A stretch of DNA of 64,000 bases from Cinnamomum chago (taxonomy: Eukaryota; Streptophyta; Magnoliopsida; Laurales; Lauraceae), in NCBI GenBank assembly GCA_038049695.1, contig CP142452.1:91147501-91211500 (forward strand). Reading direction: 5' to 3'. The notes below the pieces were generated by a model that searched no databases, was not told the DNA's origin, and saw nothing but the letters and a program-made list of their open reading frames with translations. Within the stretch, counting starts at the first letter, position 1. Every line of letters begins with the position of its first letter. The position numbers and the translations under genes are program-made. This document shows positions 1 to 33,119 of this stretch, in pieces.

Positions 1-1149
1 AAAAAGAAAGGAAACCCAAAAAACATTAAAAAATTACCAAAAAGAACCATAACAAAGCCAAATCTTAAACAGAAACAATCCTCAAAGAAAAAATTAATCC
101 CATTCAGCGGGAAAAAATGGAAAAAAAAAGCTTTTTATAGAATAAAACAAGATGCACAACAAGAAGTTCATATTAAAGTGCATCATCTATAACACAAAAT
201 AAAAAAGAGGGTGTTTTGCCTGAGAAATGGTAGAGAAAACTTTTCACAATACAAATGTGAAGAACCGTTAACAGTTTTATTTGCCTTTGCTCCACATCTA
301 GTCAGCCCCAAGGAGTTCTGAGTTTTTGCCAAAACAGTTAGTCCTCCAATTCACTATGTTTGAAAGTTCAGAAATTGTTGACAGCATTAGTCCAGAGTAC
401 GCGTTAAAAAATTTGGTATTCTTGATACACGATTTTCCAAATTTTTTTCCGCGCATGACAACTACAATCAACTATTCTCCCAAAACATTACAAGTAATTT
501 CAATATGGGGCACATTCAACACAAATGTACATTTTTAATAAACACTTGCGACCACTCAAATCTAGGTGCAAATACACATAATGTGAGTCACATCAGTCAC
601 TCGATTCACCACAAACAAGATCAACCAGTAGATAGGACAAGAATCATGCAAAGGGAGGCACGGCGTGTAAGATCCACAATCTTGGATTTAAAGCAGCAAC
701 ATCATGGTTATTCCAATGTAACGTCGGGCCACAGAATGATCAAAACATCGAGTACTTAATATTCTTTTCAACTCCTCACTATTATTACCCGACAATACTA
801 AGTATTTTAAGGTTGAAAAAAAAATTCATTTCATGAAATAATATTGTCTTCTGCACAAGGAGAAAAAATATCTCAACGCGTTGGAGCTTTGGTTCTAGAA
901 TTGGAATATTGCAACTCTGGAAATATGCTTGCTTTATTCTTTTGTTTTATTGTGAATGTGTCTTTTGTTTATTTATTTTTACACATGTCCGAGCTTCATC
1001 AAACTCTATTTACACCTCACCTAAAGAATAAAACATCTGAAAAAAATATAATGATCAAATTAGCAACAAAAAGAATGACTCAAAAGTTTACTAATTAATA
1101 AATTTAATAAAAATAATTCGTATTAGTCCGTACATTTGGTGGTTCCGTG
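1..1149. other. AT-rich stretch, no gene recognised; possible Helitron body
   Basis: No open reading frame here resembles a known protein; the frames at 326-538, 505-759 and 844-1098 have no domain I recognise. Because a Helitron-like 3' terminus lies at 1151-1177 on the plus strand, part or all of this stretch may be the body of a non-autonomous Helitron whose 5' end I could not find or which lies left of the window. This is inference from position only. Confidence 0.35.
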
Positions 1150-1150
1150 G

Positions 1151-1177
1151 TCCGTGCATAGCACGAGGTTTTGCTAG
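1151..1177 (+). mobile_element. Helitron-like 3' terminus (hairpin + CTAG^T)
   Basis: A short palindrome (CGTGC-ATA-GCACG, about 1153-1165) is followed after 8 bases by CTAG at 1174-1177 and then a T. Plant Helitrons end in a small GC hairpin a few bases before CTRR and insert between A and T. A related terminus in the opposite orientation is present at 60311-60340. The 5' TC end was not located, so element length is unknown. Confidence 0.45.
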
Positions 1178-3425
1178 TTCACTATAATGGAATGATACGT
1201 ATCGGATCATCTCTTGTTTATTAAATCAGATGGTTAAAGAGGGCCTGAGTAGGAGATATGAGAGCAGTTATGGGAAGTTGGTTTCTTTTTGAGGAAGTTA
1301 TAGGTCAGTTTGTTTAGAGAGGATAGTGGAGAGAAAGGAGAGTGGAGATTTACTTGAGGAAGTTATGCGTAGGTTAGTGGAGGGACATATGGCTTGATGA
1401 AGGAGAACATGTGTCTTCATATGAAGGGGGACAAGTGTCAGCATACCAAGGGAGACTACATTCCCTTAGTATAATAGATACACGTGAGCCCAAACAAGCC
1501 CAAGCTCGAGACCCTGTTTCTTACTTTAGCGTGTAAGACTCGTTACAGTCCTCCTTATAGTCAACAGTAGAAAAATAAATAAAAAGCGTGAAAGGAAATT
1601 CAGAGCAGGTAGGGTCGGATATTTGCTAACTAGCTTGAGGACCCATTCCGTAATTTAGCAAGATTTCTACTAGAAAATTGTAATCATTGTGATTTCTGAT
1701 TGCCTTCTTCTTGGCCTTTTTAAATTTAATTTTTAAGCCTATAAATTTAATTTTTTAGCTAAATTCTAAATTTCAACCACATGAAAAATCACTTTTATCT
1801 TTGCAATCCTAGCCTCTTTAAGCATTTTTTGGATACTCCAACTAAAACAACTTTTGGAGAATTAACTCTCTGGAAATGAATTCTTTGATCCTAATGATTC
1901 AGAATCAAAAGCTCTACATCACACCTCCAAATTTGTCAATGTATTACCATTTGTATACACACAGAGTCACCCTTTCCTACTTATATGATGAAAGTAAATC
2001 ATTATATCACCAAAGATCTTTGTGACCTATAAGCTATAACCTCTTCTTATCAAAGAAAAAACATAAAGAGGGAAGACTCCCTGCACCTTCGAACGCTATA
2101 AAAAGATAGGGAACTCAGCAAATTGACTCTTGACTTAGCTAAATTATCTCATTTTAATGGAAGACATGGTCAAATTAACATAGGAGAAACTCAGTGGAGT
2201 CACCTAATTTTGGTAAATTATATGCATTTTGAACCATTTTATAAGTAAGTTTGATTTTAAAGAATTGATGATTGTTTTTAAGCAAATAATGTTTGAGTTT
2301 TGGGGTTAGCAATTAAAACATCATCGATTGAATATAATTTGAGATTTATACTTGATCTTCTATATTCAATGTTTAATCTCAACATTATTTAATATGTACG
2401 CAGGATTATTTTTTTCCTTACACTTTTCTTATTATAATATTTTCTGGCATATGTAAATTAAGTAATTTGACTTTATTATTAATACATGTAAATATATGTA
2501 TATCTAAAATTTACAAGTGTTTCATCTATTTTTAAAATACTTTCTTTTGAAAACATGACTCTTCCCAATGTCCTTACTAACTATATCCAAGTCAATTTTC
2601 TATTTATATTTCTCTCATTTATCTTCTTAAAAGATGGCCTCAAATTAAATGTATCTTTTTTGGCCCGGGCCTCTGTTGCTTGTTTGTATATATATATTTA
2701 TATTAAGTGAAGGGCAATTTACTCTAAATCTTGCAAACTTTGCAATCGATTTTAGTTTTGATCAGAGTCCAATTAATTTTATATTCTTTAAAAATCCCTA
2801 AAATTAAGGGAAGAAGCAAATCTTGAGACTTGAAAATCCTTATCTCAGTGTTTTACTTATCAGCAAAACCTTCCAAATTAAATGCCTTACCAATACTGTT
2901 CTCACTTCTTTTTCCTTTATATTATTTGGCACTTATTTTTTTACTTTTAATTTTTAAATCCATACTAATTCTTATTTCACATAAATCTTATCTTGTTTTA
3001 TTATGTTTTAAACATTGAAGCCAATAAAAATATAATTATGCTTAATTCATAATAATACTAATATATACTCTTTTAAAGTAATTTAATCCTATTAATACCT
3101 ATTTTTTAATTTATTTTTTTATGCAAATAGGGTGGTCAAGCCAGTACACACCAATTTTACAGTGAGACTATATCTAATCTAAAATATTATTCAGACCTAA
3201 AATAAATGAAAAGTCCACTGGGACCGACGAGGGGACAGATCCAACTCTGGGATCCAACGGTCCTGGGAGGACCGGGCCAGGCCAGGATTCGGTCCCCAGT
3301 CGGTACACACAGAACGACTGTAAAATAAAATAGAGAAGGGACAACCCTTTCGGATGGTTTAGATCTTTTTTAGTTTGGTGGGCCCACTATATGACTTTGG
3401 AATTGTTTGCGTAGAAAAGTCATAC
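1178..3425. other. Gene-free AT-rich spacer
   Basis: No coding region recognised. The only local structure is an 11-base repeat GAGGAAGTTAT at about 1291 and 1356 within a purine-rich patch (1230-1440). From 3230 the sequence becomes GC-richer and may be the promoter side of the small gene at 3569. Confidence 0.5.
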
Positions 3426-3469
3426 TCATACACCAACGAAAGCTTTTCTTGACTTTCGTTGGTGTATGA
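3426..3469. repeat. Perfect 17-bp inverted repeat with 10-nt loop
   Basis: TCATACACCAACGAAAG at 3426-3442 is exactly complementary to 3453-3469, with loop 3443-3452. The hairpin ends 100 bases before the candidate start codon at 3569, so it would sit in the 5'UTR or core promoter of that gene if it is expressed. No transposon ends or duplications were seen around it. Confidence 0.8.
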
Positions 3470-3568
3470 TCCATGTTCTTCCTTTGTAGATTTGGCGGTA
3501 TACATCACACGTCTTTTCCCGCTCTCTCAGTTTTCTTCTGCAAGTCGACAGGCCCGAAGTCGAAGAAC

Positions 3569-3736
3569 ATGGATCATCTTCCCAAGTATGATCCCCATTC
3601 CCATGTCGCCAAGAGAAAGACCTCGAGAGTAAAAGCGGCTCTGAACTCTGTTCATATCATACCCATCATCGTCGTTCTCTGCTCCATCATCCTATGGTTC
3701 TTCTCCGATTCAAGTATAATCCCAATCTCCCAATGA
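3569..3736 (+). CDS. Candidate 55-aa single-pass membrane protein, or first exon of a longer one
   Basis: I do not recognise the family. The ATG at 3569 (context AACATGG, favourable for plants) opens a frame of 55 codons ending in TGA at 3734-3736. Residues 1-28 are hydrophilic with a basic patch (KRKTSR, 15-20); residues about 29-46 are strongly hydrophobic (HIIPIIVVLCSIILWFF), as expected for a signal anchor with a cytosolic basic N-terminus. The local sequence is GC-richer than its surroundings. A GTATAA that could serve as a splice donor lies right after the hydrophobic segment, near 3715, so this may be exon 1 of a type II membrane protein whose later exons I could not identify between 3.8 and 8.5 kb. 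An upstream in-frame ATG at 3473 would add 32 residues but has poorer context. Function unknown. Confidence 0.4.
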   Translation: MDHLPKYDPHSHVAKRKTSRVKAALNSVHIIPIIVVLCSIILWFFSDSSIIPISQ

Positions 3737-6700
3737 CCCATTTTCTTGTTTGATTGTTTCTTTTTATTTATTTTTTTCACACACACACACACACACTCTC
3801 TCTCTCTGTGTTTACTATTTTAAATGGGATGGAAAGAGAAGTGCAAAATAGTATGTTTCTTTTATTCTATGCATTGTTGGGATTTGGGTTGATTGCAACA
3901 ATGGGTTGTAACGGAAAGTGAAAAAGATCTTAGTTACTGTTTTCTTTTTCTTTTTTTAGGCCGAGGGTTTAGATGCATACACCCAGTTGTATGTCTAAGA
4001 TACTGAATAGAGAATTAAATATCTGGTAGTTTCTTTTGATCGAAATTGACAAAGCCCAAATCTTTGGTGTTTTTTTTTTTTTTGCTAGAAAACCCAATTC
4101 TTTACTATTCTTGTTGGACCTTTTCATTTTTTATTTTTTTGTGTCATTTCTTTTGGATGAAGCATGGTAGGAAGAAGAGTTATTAGAACAATAAAATGGT
4201 ACTTTTTATTTTTTATTTATCTTGATTTTCCCATTCAGTTCATCTACTTGGTATTGAATTGTTAGGAACTCAAGGTAAAGGGGTTTCATTGTAGGAGTCA
4301 CTTTCTTAGGAATTAATATTACCCTTTGATAGAAAGGCTGCAATCATAAGAATTCAATAGGACATGTTTGCCTGCCTCCTATTGAATTTAAAGAAGTTCA
4401 TAGTACGCCGCGGGGGGGGGGGGGGGGGGGGGGGGGGGGGTGTTTGGAGTATTAAAGAGGTGAGGAGTGAAGGGTCTTAGTGGGCCAGGGTTATAGATGA
4501 GGCCATCACTTTTCTCAAAATATGATTTACTGGCATGATTGGTGGGTAATCATTATAAAATATAAAAATCGAGAGATTATTTGATGGTCCACTGCGGATC
4601 TTTACTTTAATCCTTTACCTGTAGCTTCAATTCCTATTAAATCATTCTCTATGCAATGCAGTTCTCTGTTTGCAATACCTCTTTAGTCTTTCCTATTACT
4701 CTTGAATTTTAAGCCAATTGCAATTGATGTATCAGCAAAAATATCTGTACTCTTTTTTCTTCTTATTTTTTCATTTTATGGTTTTTTAAGTTTGAAGCAC
4801 TTTCTTAGTATTGGGAATTTTAAGTTGATGATGAGTATAACATGTGATATTACTGATAAGAAAAATGAAAAAATGACTTATATCCTTTTGGAGAATTTGA
4901 TGTAAGGTGATAGACTCCATACTGCCCCCACCTCATGTGCAACTTACCTGGATGCTTGACAATCAAGGAAAAAGGGGGATGGATAGATTTGGATGCAGAT
5001 AAGTGGTAGCCCATTAGGCACTAGCTGTGTGGTAACCCTAGTTCAAAGGCCTCAAAGTTCAATAGCTATATAGTTCAAATTTCTTTTGATCAGATGGTAC
5101 ATAATGATTAAAATAGTGACAAATTGGAGTGCTAATCCATGGGGAATAGGTGTGTGTGAAGGGATTTTTTTTTTGCTTAAGGTGTGTGAAGGGAGTTGAT
5201 TAATCTTAGATGAGCTCCCCTCCATGAAAACAAAAAGGGACGTTAGGTGGGTTGGGCAGAGTTGAATGCACTTAGAACTCTGAGGGAAAAAAATGGTCTG
5301 TATTGTACATCTCTTTTTTCATAACTGTGATGATTTGCATTTACAATTGGAATTGAATTTGTCTTTTAGAAAAAAAAGAAAGTATGATCTTTTAGTGTTA
5401 GGAGTTCTCCTGTTGGGGATCTACAATGTAATGGATGAGTGGAATCACCAAAGGGTCTGCTAGAATTCAGGATGGTGCTACTGCCATGCAGTTTTTAAGA
5501 GATTGTTGGTTCAGTGTGTTCGGTTGGCGAGCACAAGTTGGTTTAGACAGATAAATATTCCATGTTTCTAGCATTTGCATGAGCTAAGCCATCTTACCTG
5601 TACATAAGTAGTTCTTCCAACTGAGGTCAACTGTGAAGCTTTTCATTTGACGATTCGTTCAACAGTTGAAATACAGATTCTATAAAATTGTTTTTTGGTC
5701 ATATTGAATGTGAATTTAAATGTATTTTTTATTTAAAATATTCCAGAGTGCCCTTATTTAAGAAGGGCTTTGCATTCAGAATCTAAAACTTATCATATGA
5801 GGAAATTAAAATCCATACATTAGTACTTTTAATTTTAGAAGCTCCTATGGAATTATTTGGAGCTATAAACTATATATTTGAAGAGGGCATGCCTCTAATG
5901 TTCCTATGAATTAGTGGCATTGGTTGAAGCCATATGAATTGGATGAAAGTAGACAGAACTAGAAGATTGAATTCATTTATCGGATTTGGTCAACTTGAAT
6001 ACTTGACTATGGATTAGTTCACCCAAAAACCAAACCAAGTGAACATATTTGGGATTGATAGAAAGCACTGAATTCCTATTGGTGAGCTTGAATATGAGTT
6101 GAGTTAACATGTGAGAAAGTGAACAGAGTAACTAATCACATTGCTAGCTGTCAAAGAAAACTTGGCCTGGTTGTACATCATCACGTTTGAATGCTATCAA
6201 AATTTCTTTTCTAACTTTTGAGCAGTAGATTCCCAGCCGGAGGACTCACTTCCATCTGTCTAAATATCATATAATTACTCACCTTTTTGAAGAAGAAATG
6301 ATGAACAAACATTGCATTTTTAGTTCTAACTGACAAGAACAATAAGGATGATAAAGTAACTTTTTTCCTCCAAATTTTAACTTGACTTTATCTTGAGTGG
6401 TTGTATGAAATATCTAACTACATCTACAGTACTATGATTTAGATGGGTAAACTCTTATCATGTCCATTTTTGCTAATGTAAAATTTATACTTCTTTTAAT
6501 CATATACAGCAGAAAGTGAATAAGGCCAATTCGATTGTTGCCAAAATAATGACAAGAATCAATTGCCTTGAAACCGGCCTTATAAATGGACAACCTGGCT
6601 TCAGGGCAAATAGGAAAATGGGATGTTTTACATTCAGTACCAACATGGATAATTTCCATAGCTGAAGTTTGGATGGATATAGTCCATGGAAAACAAATAT

Positions 6701-30000: not shown

Positions 30001-30400
30001 ATTTATTTGAGACGACAAGTCTGGGAAACTTCAATTTAAACTAGCTTTTCTTGTGGCCGGGGTGTTGAAGATAAGCAGCACAGAGATGGGACAGGTTGTT
30101 ATATTAAAAATGGAGGAGTATATTAGGGATTGTGATATTTTCAAGATTATTGAGTTTACTAATAAAGTAACAGAAGGGGTCCACTCTACTCCTACAAGCA
30201 GACAAGGATGCTAACCTCTACAATCCAACCAACGATTTTACTTAAACCATTTTGTTGTTTTTCGTTTCCATTGGTGTCTTCTGATCACCTTCCATGGTCA
30301 TCATCTGAGCTCCTCATTTTCATGTGCTTGTTGTGTCTTTTTAGCCATGATCACATTATTCTTCAACTTATTTCTTCATCTGTTTAGAATAATAATTTCA

Positions 30401-30404
<4 letters not shown>
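27016..30404. other. Gene-free repeat-rich region
   Basis: No recognised gene. It holds (CAT)n tracts at 27388-27404 and 27936-27950, a 14-15-bp hairpin at 27748-27785 (AATCTCTCCTTAAT arms), and a (TTG)-rich tract followed by (TTTC)n at 29793-29840 that may be a LINE or SINE tail. Confidence 0.45.
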
Positions 30405-30455
<51 letters not shown>

Positions 30456-30468
30456 GTCTCTCTCTCTA
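30405..30468 (+). repeat. Compound microsatellite (TC)n(TA)n(TC)n
   Basis: About 13 TC units, then about 12 TA units to 30455, then a short TC run. It lies 130 bases upstream of the TRIM array. Confidence 0.95.
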
Positions 30469-30599
30469 GAAGCTCATAGGGACAAGAATGTTAAAGAAAG
30501 AAATTATACCAGCCACTCCCCTTAGTTGATAATATCAGATAAATATAATTAGAGTATTTGATGCAATCATAAATTTGTCATTGTATTGATAAGTATTAG

Positions 30600-31995
30600 T
30601 GTAAGATCCCACACTGCCTATGTGGCTGCCTAGAGACTGGGCTAGAAGTTATGACCCCCTTCTATTGCAGCATGAGGGCTTTTGGGACACCTACGGGCCA
30701 ACCCAGAAACAAAACCGTGCGGGTCAAAGGCCCAAAGCGGACAATATCAGGCTGGTGGGATGAGTCTATGATAGAATGGTATCAGACGACTCTCCTATAA
30801 GTGGTGGGATTTCTCACACGAAACCTTTTAAGATCCCCTCCTATTGTAGCATGAGGCCTTTTGAGATGCTTGCGAGCCAGCTCAGAAATAAAATCGTGCG
30901 GGTCAAAGGCCCAAAGCGGACAATATCACTATATCAGGCTGGTGGGACGGGTCTATAACAGAATGGTATCAGAGCTGAGGGCGGCTCTCCTCTAAGTGAT
31001 GGGGATTGTAAGATCCCACATCGCCCATGGGCTGCCTAGAGACTGGGCTATAAGTTAGGATCCCTTCCTATTGCAACATGAGGCCTTCTGGGACGCTCAC
31101 GGGCCAGCCCAGAAACAAAACCGTGTGGGTCAAAGGCCCAAAGCGGACAATATCAGGCTGGTGGGACGGGTTTGTGACGGAATATTGTAAGATCCCATTT
31201 CGCCCATGGGGCTGCCCAGAGACTGGGCTATAAGTTAGGACCCCCTTCTATTGCAGCATGAGGCCTTTTGGGACGCCTACGGGCCGGTCCAGAAACAAAA
31301 CCGTGCGGGTCAAAGGCCCAAAAATGACAATATCAGGCTGGTGGGATGGGTCTGTAACAGAATGGTATCAGAGCCAATGGCAGCTCTCCTCTGAGTGGTG
31401 GGGATTGTAAGATCCCACATCGCCCATGGGGCTGCCCAGAGATTGAGCTATAAGTTAGGACCCCCTTCCATTGCAGCATGAGGCCTTTTGGGACACCTGC
31501 GGGCTAGCTCAGAAACAAAATCGTGCAGGTCAAAGGCCCAAAGCGGACATTATCAGGCTGGTGGGACGGGTCTGTGACAAAATGGTATTAGAGCCAATGG
31601 CGGCTCTCCTCTGAGTGGTGAGGATTGTAAGATCCCACATCGCCCATGAGACTGCCCTCCTATTGCAGCATGAGGCATTTTGGGAGGCCTGCGCGCCAAC
31701 TCAGAAACAAAACCGTGTGGGTCAAAGGCCCAAAGCGAACAATATCATGCTGGTGGGACAGATCTGTGACATAATGGTATCAGTAATGGTATCAGTCCGG
31801 AGGGCGGCTCTCCTCTGAGTGGTTACAATCCCACATTGCCCATGGGGCTGCCCAGAGACTGAGCTATAAGTTAAGACCCCCTTCTATTGCAGCATGAGGC
31901 CTTTTGGGACGCTTGCGGGCCAGCCCAAAAACAAAACCATATGGGTCAACGGCCCAAAGCGGACAATATCCGGCTAGTGGGACGGGTCTGTGACA
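30600..31995 (+). mobile_element. Tandem TRIM retrotransposon array (7 LTRs, 6 internal segments)
   Basis: A 220-bp unit repeats. LTRs of about 174 bp begin TGTAAGATCCCACATCG and end GGTCTGTGACA (TG...CA). They are followed by a 46-bp internal region with TGGTATCAGAGC, the primer-binding site for plant initiator tRNA-Met, and a purine-rich GAGTGGTGGGGAT just before the next LTR. LTRs: 30600-30773, 30811-30960 (5' damaged), 31007-31179, 31186-31359, 31406-31579, 31626-31771 (28-bp deletion) and 31824-31995. The internal segment after LTR3 has collapsed to 6 bp (31180-31185). The one after LTR6 has a duplicated primer site. There is no gag-pol coding, so this is a terminal-repeat retrotransposon in miniature. 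The whole array is bracketed by one perfect 5-bp duplication, ATTAG (30595-30599 and 31996-32000). Confidence 0.88.
30777..30788 (+). promoter_or_regulatory. TRIM primer-binding site (first of the array)
   Basis: TGGTATCAGA begins three bases after the LTR end (30773), as expected for minus-strand priming by initiator tRNA-Met. Other copies start near 30963, 31362 and 31582, with a doubled copy near 31773-31795. Confidence 0.7.
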
Positions 31996-33119
31996 ATTAG
32001 TTAATTAAAATGTCTACCATAGGGTGAAAATAAATTGATCGTAGAGTTGAAAGAGATTAGAAGAGTTATTCGCGCTTGAGTTCAAAAAATAAATTTATCG
32101 CAAAAATCAGTTTGGCATTCACGGTGGGTGATCCATTCTTTCTATTTTTAAACATCAACCTCCATTTAATGATAAAATTAATCCTATCTATTTACCCAAG
32201 GATCTGTCTTCCGTCATCCTTATCAAAGTCTTCGCCCAACTATGTTGGGGTTGCTTGCCATCATTCAGGTCCATCTTTAGTTAAATTCTTGATAGATTGT
32301 ACTTCTTTAAATCTATATTGAATATTTCCATTCAGATTCTTTTCGGTCTACCCCTTTACTTTAAGGGGCCATGGACTAAGTATCGCTAACTACCATAAAT
32401 TGGCCTCTGATGATTGAACACTTGAATATAGCTCCCAATCTTCAACGATAAAATATGATCATGCTAGTATCATTTGATGTTTAATTTAATGTTAATATGT
32501 TGATCTAGCTAGGTGATGTATAGACGTCTCCTGACTGGCTTCATCTTCTCCTTAGACCTTAATCTGTCTTCAATCAGCCGTCTTTCATTATCAACTCATC
32601 TTCCAGCCTAGAATATTAAGATATAGGCTTTCCTTTGGTGAATCTTACATTGTAGCTATTTGAAAACTAATCTCTCTTTATGATAGAATCTTCATATGAT
32701 AGGCAATAGGAAACAAATGGACATATCTTTAATCTGAGGTTGTCTCTTGTAGACCATTCATTGCATTGCTGTATGTTTATCTACAGGCTAGAGAGTTTGT
32801 TGAAAACTTTTGGTTTGTCCTAGCCCCTGTTGTTGTTGTTGTTTTAAATCTTAACTCACAACATAATAGATCGGTTTAAAAGCTTTGTACAACGACCCAT
32901 TCCAACTACGGTCAAATTGGAGCTATGGAAATTGGCAGGGCACCTCTTTATTGATAAAAAAAAATGGATCAAAATAAGGAGGAAACAATAATAATAATAA
33001 TAAAGTTGCTCGTGGCTTCAAAAGCTATCAACAATTCTTGTTATGCTTTTACCAAAAAAAAAAAAAACGATTCTTGTTATGCAATTTTCGAGATTAGTCT
33101 GCCTAAAAAGAGAGACAAA

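Follow-up and report, generated by a model that had tools for sequence, protein, structure and literature searches.

TRIMs whose consecutive units share LTRs are known from plants as tandemly arrayed TRIMs (TA-TRIMs). In the accessible part of the survey by Gao et al. (2016, PMC4717578), the maize examples range from L3I2 to L5I4 and carry one 5-bp target duplication (TSD), like the array described here, and an inverted case is also reported. No analysis of joints between cDNA ends was seen in that part, and the terms "TATA", "promoter" and "polymerase III" are absent from the text of the survey. Wukong of maize (PMC4528315) is, like the TRIM of this study, short. The available portion of that paper gives two 230-bp LTRs, a 72-bp internal region, up to seven LTRs and a 5-bp TSD, ascribes the arrays to recombination between elements, and does not address the promoter type. 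Other partly accessible sources report a bivalve TRIM that reaches 58 LTRs and, in a 2025 paper, leave open how tandem LTR elements arise.

Cassandra (PMC7215508) and the TRIMp3 elements, with Helenus and Ajax (PMC10886601), are short and non-autonomous and carry a Pol III promoter in the LTR, as we propose for the present TRIMs. According to the accessible sections of these papers, their promoters are derived from 5S or tRNA genes, whereas the signals found here are an upstream USE and a TATA-like box as in U6 genes. Further traits of Cassandra, again as given in those sections, are a short R (18 bp; 11–14 nt is predicted here), long tandem arrays (up to 13 LTRs) and multi-unit transcripts. 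The word "snRNA" is absent from the accessible part of the TRIMp3 paper.

LTR–LTR junctions like those described below occur in plant 2-LTR circles (PMC9324142, PMC10959353), where the accessible text ascribes them to end joining of linear cDNA and, for carrot eccDNA, takes small indels at the junctions as its mark. Those circles are extrachromosomal, whereas the TRIM junctions here lie inside integrated arrays. The template-switching complexes of Triticeae (PMC1950507) likewise have an extra internal LTR under one TSD; unlike the present array, they are large, they contain three LTRs, and the outer two are highly similar.

We analysed a window of 64,000 nucleotides from Cinnamomum chago (contig CP142452.1, positions 91,147,501 to 91,211,500). 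The seven-LTR array found in it is itself of a known plant kind, and what it adds to the described systems are the scars at LTR joints and the U6-type promoter signals. Joints that can be read as scars allow the origin of tandem LTR elements to be tested by sequencing. Should the LTRs be U6-type promoters, these TRIMs would use a transcription mode undescribed in the open-licence Pol III TRIM papers searched. The TRIMs would then stand beside Cassandra, Helenus and Ajax as a type-3-promoter branch of Pol III TRIMs, with an upstream promoter where those have a 5S or tRNA body, and there would be a mechanistic reason for tandem TRIMs. The TRIMs would also form a scattered reservoir of U6-like promoters in the genome, in which a few U6 copies would be TRIM by-products.

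Architecture of the array

Seven LTR copies, all on the same strand, occupy positions 30600–31995 of the window, as an earlier note made from the letters alone had described. With LTR4 as the query, the main-match E-values for the six other LTRs ranged from 1.6e-62 (LTR5) to 1.8e-30 (LTR2). A 25-base pattern of the LTR start matched four times in the window versus none in 100 shuffles. The features are as follows.

30595..30599, no strand, left TSD ATTAG, from the sequence
30600..30773, plus strand, LTR1, 174 bp, end decayed to TA, from the LTR alignment
30774..30819, plus strand, internal segment 1, PBS-like TGGTATCAGA, 3' part rearranged, right border approximate
30820..30960, plus strand, LTR2, 5' part including the USE deleted, left border approximate
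30961..31006, plus strand, internal segment 2, 46 bp
31007..31179, plus strand, LTR3, terminal CA decayed to CG
31013..31023, plus strand, perfect snRNA USE ATCCCACATCG in LTR3, with TATAAG 25 nt downstream at 31049
31180..31185, plus strand, GAATAT, joint of LTR3 and LTR4 without internal region, read as a GAAT+AT cDNA-end (2-LTR-type) scar
31186..31359, plus strand, LTR4, 174 bp
31360..31405, plus strand, internal segment 4, 46 bp, PBS TGGTATCAGAGC at 31363
31406..31579, plus strand, LTR5, 174 bp
31412..31422, plus strand, perfect USE in LTR5
31449..31454, plus strand, TATA-like box TATAAG in LTR5, 26 nt after the USE
31477..31489, plus strand, predicted R of LTR5, from USE start + 65 to TTTT (31486–31489)
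31580..31625, plus strand, internal segment 5, 46 bp
31626..31771, plus strand, LTR6, 28-bp deletion that removes the TATA-like box, perfect USE at 31632–31642
31772..31821, plus strand, internal segment 6, duplicated TAATGGTATCAG, right border approximate
31822..31995, plus strand, LTR7, initial TG decayed, one-mismatch USE at 31828
31996..32000, no strand, right TSD ATTAG, from the sequence

The LTR length of about 174 bp, the TG...CA termini and the LTR starts at 31186, 31406 and 31626 agree with the earlier description. The complete 174-bp LTRs are LTR4 and LTR5, and LTR6 keeps both ends, minus 28 bp. The 220-bp period, which had been called strict, is exact from LTR4 to LTR6; the other steps are about 179–227 bp, with approximate starts for LTR2 and LTR7. 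The 46-bp internal region with its PBS (exact at 31363) and G-rich tract was likewise recovered. Internal segment 6 contains a 12-bp duplication. The array has five internal-like segments instead of the six claimed, because nothing but GAATAT lies between LTR3 and LTR4. K2P distances among the window LTR pairs are 0.12–0.22, with 0.177 for the outer pair LTR1/LTR7 and no clearly younger pair.

The proposal that a single ATTAG duplication brackets the whole array held. Perfect 5-bp TSDs were found in 27 of 48 loci with complete ends, versus 4 of 2256 mismatched flank pairs. The array has three or more LTRs with internal regions under one TSD, by which tandemly arrayed TRIMs are recognised, and it is a TA-TRIM in every tested feature. 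Its reading as a tandem TRIM with shared LTRs was thus correct, and multi-LTR arrays with one TSD are published. Its internal region had also been thought unusually small, which may hold: among the accessible published descriptions, the lowest value compared is 72 bp, for Wukong, against 46 bp here.

No stop-to-stop ORF of at least 130 aa overlapping the array was found in the ORF scan of the window. An Rfam scan of 30400–32200, up to an E-value of 5, gave no 5S or tRNA match in the array, hence none of the 5S rRNA-like LTR sequence that characterises Cassandra, and no hammerhead ribozyme, which characterises Retrozymes. A functional RNA in the array was rejected, all five Rfam matches being far below their gathering scores. 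TC and TA microsatellites lie at 30401–30455, about 150 bp upstream of the array. Its neighbours in the window include Agenet and ENT domains (about 12.7–14.7 kb) and cytochrome P450 stretches (about 37.6–40.6 kb).

Related TRIMs in the genome

The genome (1.06 Gb in 14 contigs) was searched with the 220-bp unit, as the earlier note had suggested, and single LTRs, two-LTR elements and composites were all found. At least 79 matches were obtained with this query among the best 40 of 241 candidates; another search scored the best 40 of 656, and copy numbers given here are lower bounds. The annotation set comprised 79 TRIM-bearing loci and the window and used 14 LTR reference copies, one per type. 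The references show 49–88% mutual identity, all types being related; for short 3' fragments (L034, L048, window LTR2 and LTR6), C and C2 denote the best match only. Among the two-LTR loci of types A and B, the seven in which neither outer end is truncated measure 387–413 bp. The PBS was exact in 50 and within two mismatches in 80 of the 84 internal regions of 42–69 bp, and a G-rich tract precedes the TG of the next LTR.

The largest composites are L053 (8 LTR hits), L084 (16) and L054 (19, of four types). Therefore, seven LTRs, which had been considered unusual, are not exceptional in this genome, and a seven-LTR Wukong and a 13-LTR Cassandra are on record in the accessible parts of the papers cited above. 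Hits in the TSD analysis include LTR fragments (L047, L034, L027), so that the LTR counts there are upper bounds. The L084 composite (268–4208 of the locus, C4 25.19 Mb) has inversions and two non-TRIM spacers; its host sequence resembles a copia reverse transcriptase by eye, and its flanks share GATT without a perfect 5-bp TSD. In L048, a 251-bp non-TRIM spacer (1411–1661) with similar inverted ends, as judged by eye, lies between inverted TRIM parts.

Tandem units of 6.1–6.3 kb with 99–100% identity occur at L057–L062 (C4 5.36–5.40 Mb, C4 77.74–77.77 Mb and C1 62.89–62.91 Mb) and carry the same PBS as the TRIMs, beside GTGACA. As candidates for an autonomous partner, these elements on C4 and C1 could not be substantiated. 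The similarity above chance is confined to a 27-base stretch at the LTR end and the PBS, no perfect USE was present in the seven fetched pieces (63,207 bp), and one ORF of at least 150 aa was seen, in L063.

Promoter-like signals in the LTRs

Close to the LTR start lies the upstream sequence element (USE) of plant snRNA genes, RTCCCACATCG, which is perfect in 106 and has at most two mismatches in 162 of 164 copies. Perfect copies exist in all 14 types (3–20 per type). The USE and a TATA-like box are described in partly accessible sources as required in plant U6 promoters. At 26 nt after the USE, eight reference types (A, B, D, E1, F, F2, H and K2) have TATAAG or TATATG, and the six others have A/T-rich variants (TTTAAG, TGTAAA, TTAAAT, TTAAAC, TAATAT), type G being one base off. 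The box is degenerate: TATAWA is exact in 0 of 164 copies, with one mismatch in 120 and two in 44. In an automatic count, the best TATAWA match fell at 25–27 nt in 103 of 162 copies versus 4.3% in shuffles; it fell at 24 nt in 22 copies and at 2 nt in 23, mostly reflecting another register or an earlier TATG.

In 147 of 162 copies, 35–38 nt separate the 26-nt point from the first TTTT, and 11 copies have none there. Thirteen of the 14 references have a lone TTTT about 36 nt past the box, and type G has none. TTTT is not depleted as such (13 in the 14 reference LTRs versus 5.2 in shuffles), and all 13 are at one site; over all copies, 160 of 166 TTTT runs share one 10-nt bin. Inside internal regions, TTTT was found in 2 of 84.

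Within the TRIM loci, 117 perfect USEs lie inside annotated LTRs (35,179 bp) and three outside (157,601 bp), one of the three being the unannotated start of LTR6. Loci L053–L056 and L064–L083 were found with a pattern containing the USE (L068 with one containing most of it). For the types reached without such a pattern (C, C2, E1, E3, K2 and F), the USE was perfect in 39 of 66 copies and had at most one mismatch in 64.

The U6 and U2 genes of the same genome served as a control. Plant Pol III snRNA genes have a shorter USE–TATA spacing. Nine of the ten best host U6 loci have a USE within one mismatch, and L095 has none. The TATA box follows the USE by 26 nt in seven of these nine, by 27 nt in one and by 28 nt in one, and the U6 RNA starts 26–29 nt from the TATA box and 65–66 nt from the USE start. 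In the one strong U2 (Pol II) gene (145 bits), an AATAAA/TAAA box lies 33–35 nt after a one-mismatch USE, and the RNA starts 76 nt from the USE start; no USE is present in a second, weaker U2-like piece, and the U2 comparison is thus with one gene. The LTR spacing equals that of the host U6 genes and differs from that of the host U2 gene. Therefore, the LTRs have U6 geometry. U6 genes as targets of TRIM insertion were rejected, as no TRIM LTR matched at an E-value of 0.001 in the ten best U6 loci.

The LTRs appear to contain Pol III promoter signals of the kind that defines TRIMp3, with a TATA box that is degenerate in part of the types, and judged by these signals the TRIMs look to be driven by a U6-type Pol III promoter. 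Alternatively, the USE, TATA and TTTT may have been passed down with the LTR without acting as a promoter, or they may act as a Pol II promoter of the snRNA type; we consider this alternative rather unlikely though a serious competitor (this estimate concerns a separate question and is not part of the sum for the origin of the array). In its favour, the LTR types are related, so that part of the conservation of the three elements comes from common ancestry. The TATA box is also degenerate, and a TTTT placed 11–14 nt past the predicted start suits Pol III poorly. This alternative is countered by ungapped identities among the 14 references of 0.88 for the USE, a value inflated by placing the USE by best match, and 0.61 for the TATA segment, against 0.42 and 0.39 for the two spacers. 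It is also countered by the distances: LTR start to USE varies over 6–41 nt and TTTT to LTR end over 88–127 nt, while TATA to TTTT stays at 35–38 nt. The U6-like spacing speaks against it as well. The U6-type reading, which we prefer, was not found for TRIM LTRs in the open-licence literature searched and could be described elsewhere; a search of that literature for the USE sequence TCCCACATCG with retrotransposon gave no TRIM paper by title.

Joints between LTRs and origin of the array

Among 126 neighbouring LTR pairs in the same orientation, both facing ends are complete in 95. The gaps in these pairs are 42–69 bp in 84, 138–160 bp in three (types K1 and K2) and short in eight. Seven of the eight short gaps, at five loci, resemble joined cDNA ends: GAATAT in the window (type A; scored as a gap of 7, with the decayed last base of LTR3 left unaligned), GAAAT in L034, AAAAT three times in L053 (type B), GAATAT in L084 (type H), and GAATAATAT in L048, which joins to type D with three extra bases. 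The 3–4 bases at the 5' side of the scars match the interval between LTR and PBS, in some scars extended by the first of the bases that face the tRNA end; the two bases at the 3' side match those between the G-run and TG. These scars match what two joined TRIM cDNA ends should leave; a slip between two AT copies would probably have retained only one AT. The eighth short joint, of 18 bp in L083, is an ordinary deletion with different endpoints. A nested insertion as the source of the LTR3–LTR4 joint was rejected, as the far ends do not, by eye, repeat the bases flanking the joint.

Perfect TSDs were present in 12 of 16 composites with at least three LTR hits and complete outer ends, the window included; the exceptions are L020, L034, L071 and L084. 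Three of these 12 (L047, L054 and L083) are inverted so that both outer ends are U5, and several of the 12 combine different LTR types (L048, L054, L064, L073 and L075). Mixed-type or U5/U5 composites under one TSD would hardly come from growth in place, which argues for joining before integration. For the mixed and inverted composites, assembly probably preceded integration; the same reading is favoured for the window array, whose LTR distances, with no young pair, are compatible with a joint origin.

The earlier note had named two origins, a multimeric cDNA and expansion in place. Both are correct candidates, and the evidence favours the former. In the latter, a two-LTR TRIM would have grown by unequal LTR recombination, and the LTR3–LTR4 joint would be a later deletion of an internal region. 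Such growth would likewise keep one TSD, shared-LTR joints are its natural product and the other five joints of the window are of the LTR–internal–LTR form; recombination is also what the Wukong authors propose for multi-LTR elements in the accessible part of their paper (PMC4528315). The LTR tree suggested as a check does not discriminate: the seven window LTRs as one clade are neither supported nor rejected (AU test, p = 0.40 for all seven and 0.35 for five LTRs), and the 81-tip and 40-tip LTR trees do not place their origin. In L053, no base differs between LTR2, 4 and 6, and two bases are common to LTR3 and LTR5 but absent from the others; therefore, a joined 399-bp unit was probably amplified afterwards, which illustrates that later growth can occur. 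We nevertheless judge growth in place to be an unlikely source of the window array. The breakpoints at its LTR3–LTR4 joint coincide with cDNA ends, as they do at four other loci and in several LTR types, while the sole other short joint with complete ends, that of L083, is a deletion with other endpoints. The window LTR distances contain no young pairs, and the mixed-type or U5/U5 composites with one TSD elsewhere in the genome are hard to produce in this way.

It is also conceivable, with a still smaller probability, that tandem RNA or template switching made all joints without end joining, and that the GAATAT scar arose by chance. Template-switch complexes with a TSD (PMC1950507) and multi-unit Cassandra transcripts (accessible part of PMC7215508) are published. 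Chance is, however, difficult to reconcile with seven of eight short joints ending at or beside cDNA-end positions. Recombination between adjacent insertions explains most complex elements in one published survey (20 versus 2; PMC1950507). It should not leave matching TSDs, though, and those of the window match. An assembly artefact, by collapse or false expansion, is unlikely because the array units differ by 12–22% (K2P). We give separate neighbouring insertions and an assembly artefact, taken together, hardly any weight.

In our reading, which we regard as reasonably probable, the array goes back to a single integration of a TRIM concatemer, is old and has decayed, and its route of formation includes a U6-type promoter. 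A point against this reading is that a published template-switching model (PMC1950507) expects the outer LTRs to be highly similar, but LTR1 and LTR7 are no closer than other pairs. In this concatemer route, a U3 with the USE RTCCCACATCG, a spacing of 26 nt, a TATA-like box and a TTTT about 36 nt further on, an anatomy that is present in the LTRs, would direct Pol III to start 26–29 nt after the TATA box and to end at the TTTT of the downstream LTR, giving an R of about 11–14 nt. The terminator would be leaky because the TTTT lies so close after the predicted start; as it must be passed in the 5' LTR, read-through in the 3' LTR may be common, and some transcripts would span several LTRs. The reverse transcriptase of a helper element, primed with initiator tRNA-Met, would then make cDNA. 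The cDNAs may have been linked before integration, at the shared-LTR joints by template switching or LTR recombination and at LTR3/LTR4 by end joining, which would have kept 3–4 nt beyond U5 (GAAT) and 2 nt before U3 (AT), as in the observed scar. Integrase would have inserted the multimer in a single event, leaving the ATTAG seen on both sides. Point changes and small deletions, visible in the LTRs, have eroded the array after that. There is about an even chance, in our estimate, that this extends to a plant TRIM group, with fourteen LTR types here, in which a U6-type external Pol III U3 and a leaky T4 give multi-unit RNAs and, with end joining and occasional template switching to U6, once-integrated concatemers.

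Copies of U6 were found by Rfam inside three TRIM composites: L001 (977–1079, 74 bits), L032 (1307–1415, 88.7 bits) and L054 (4716–4816, 68 bits). They sit between LTR pieces of opposite orientation and are all among the 48 U6 hits listed genome-wide, 47 of which are above the cut-off. In L032 and L054, the 3' end of U6 lies a few A-rich bases from an LTR start, and in L054 GTACC brackets the whole composite, U6 included. These composites fit template switching onto U6 RNA during reverse transcription, as far as can be told from their structure. Within the same GTACC duplication, L054 (572–5295, C8 45.394–45.399 Mb) also includes an inverted two-LTR element, and its E1-E3-E2 set recurs every 730 bp.
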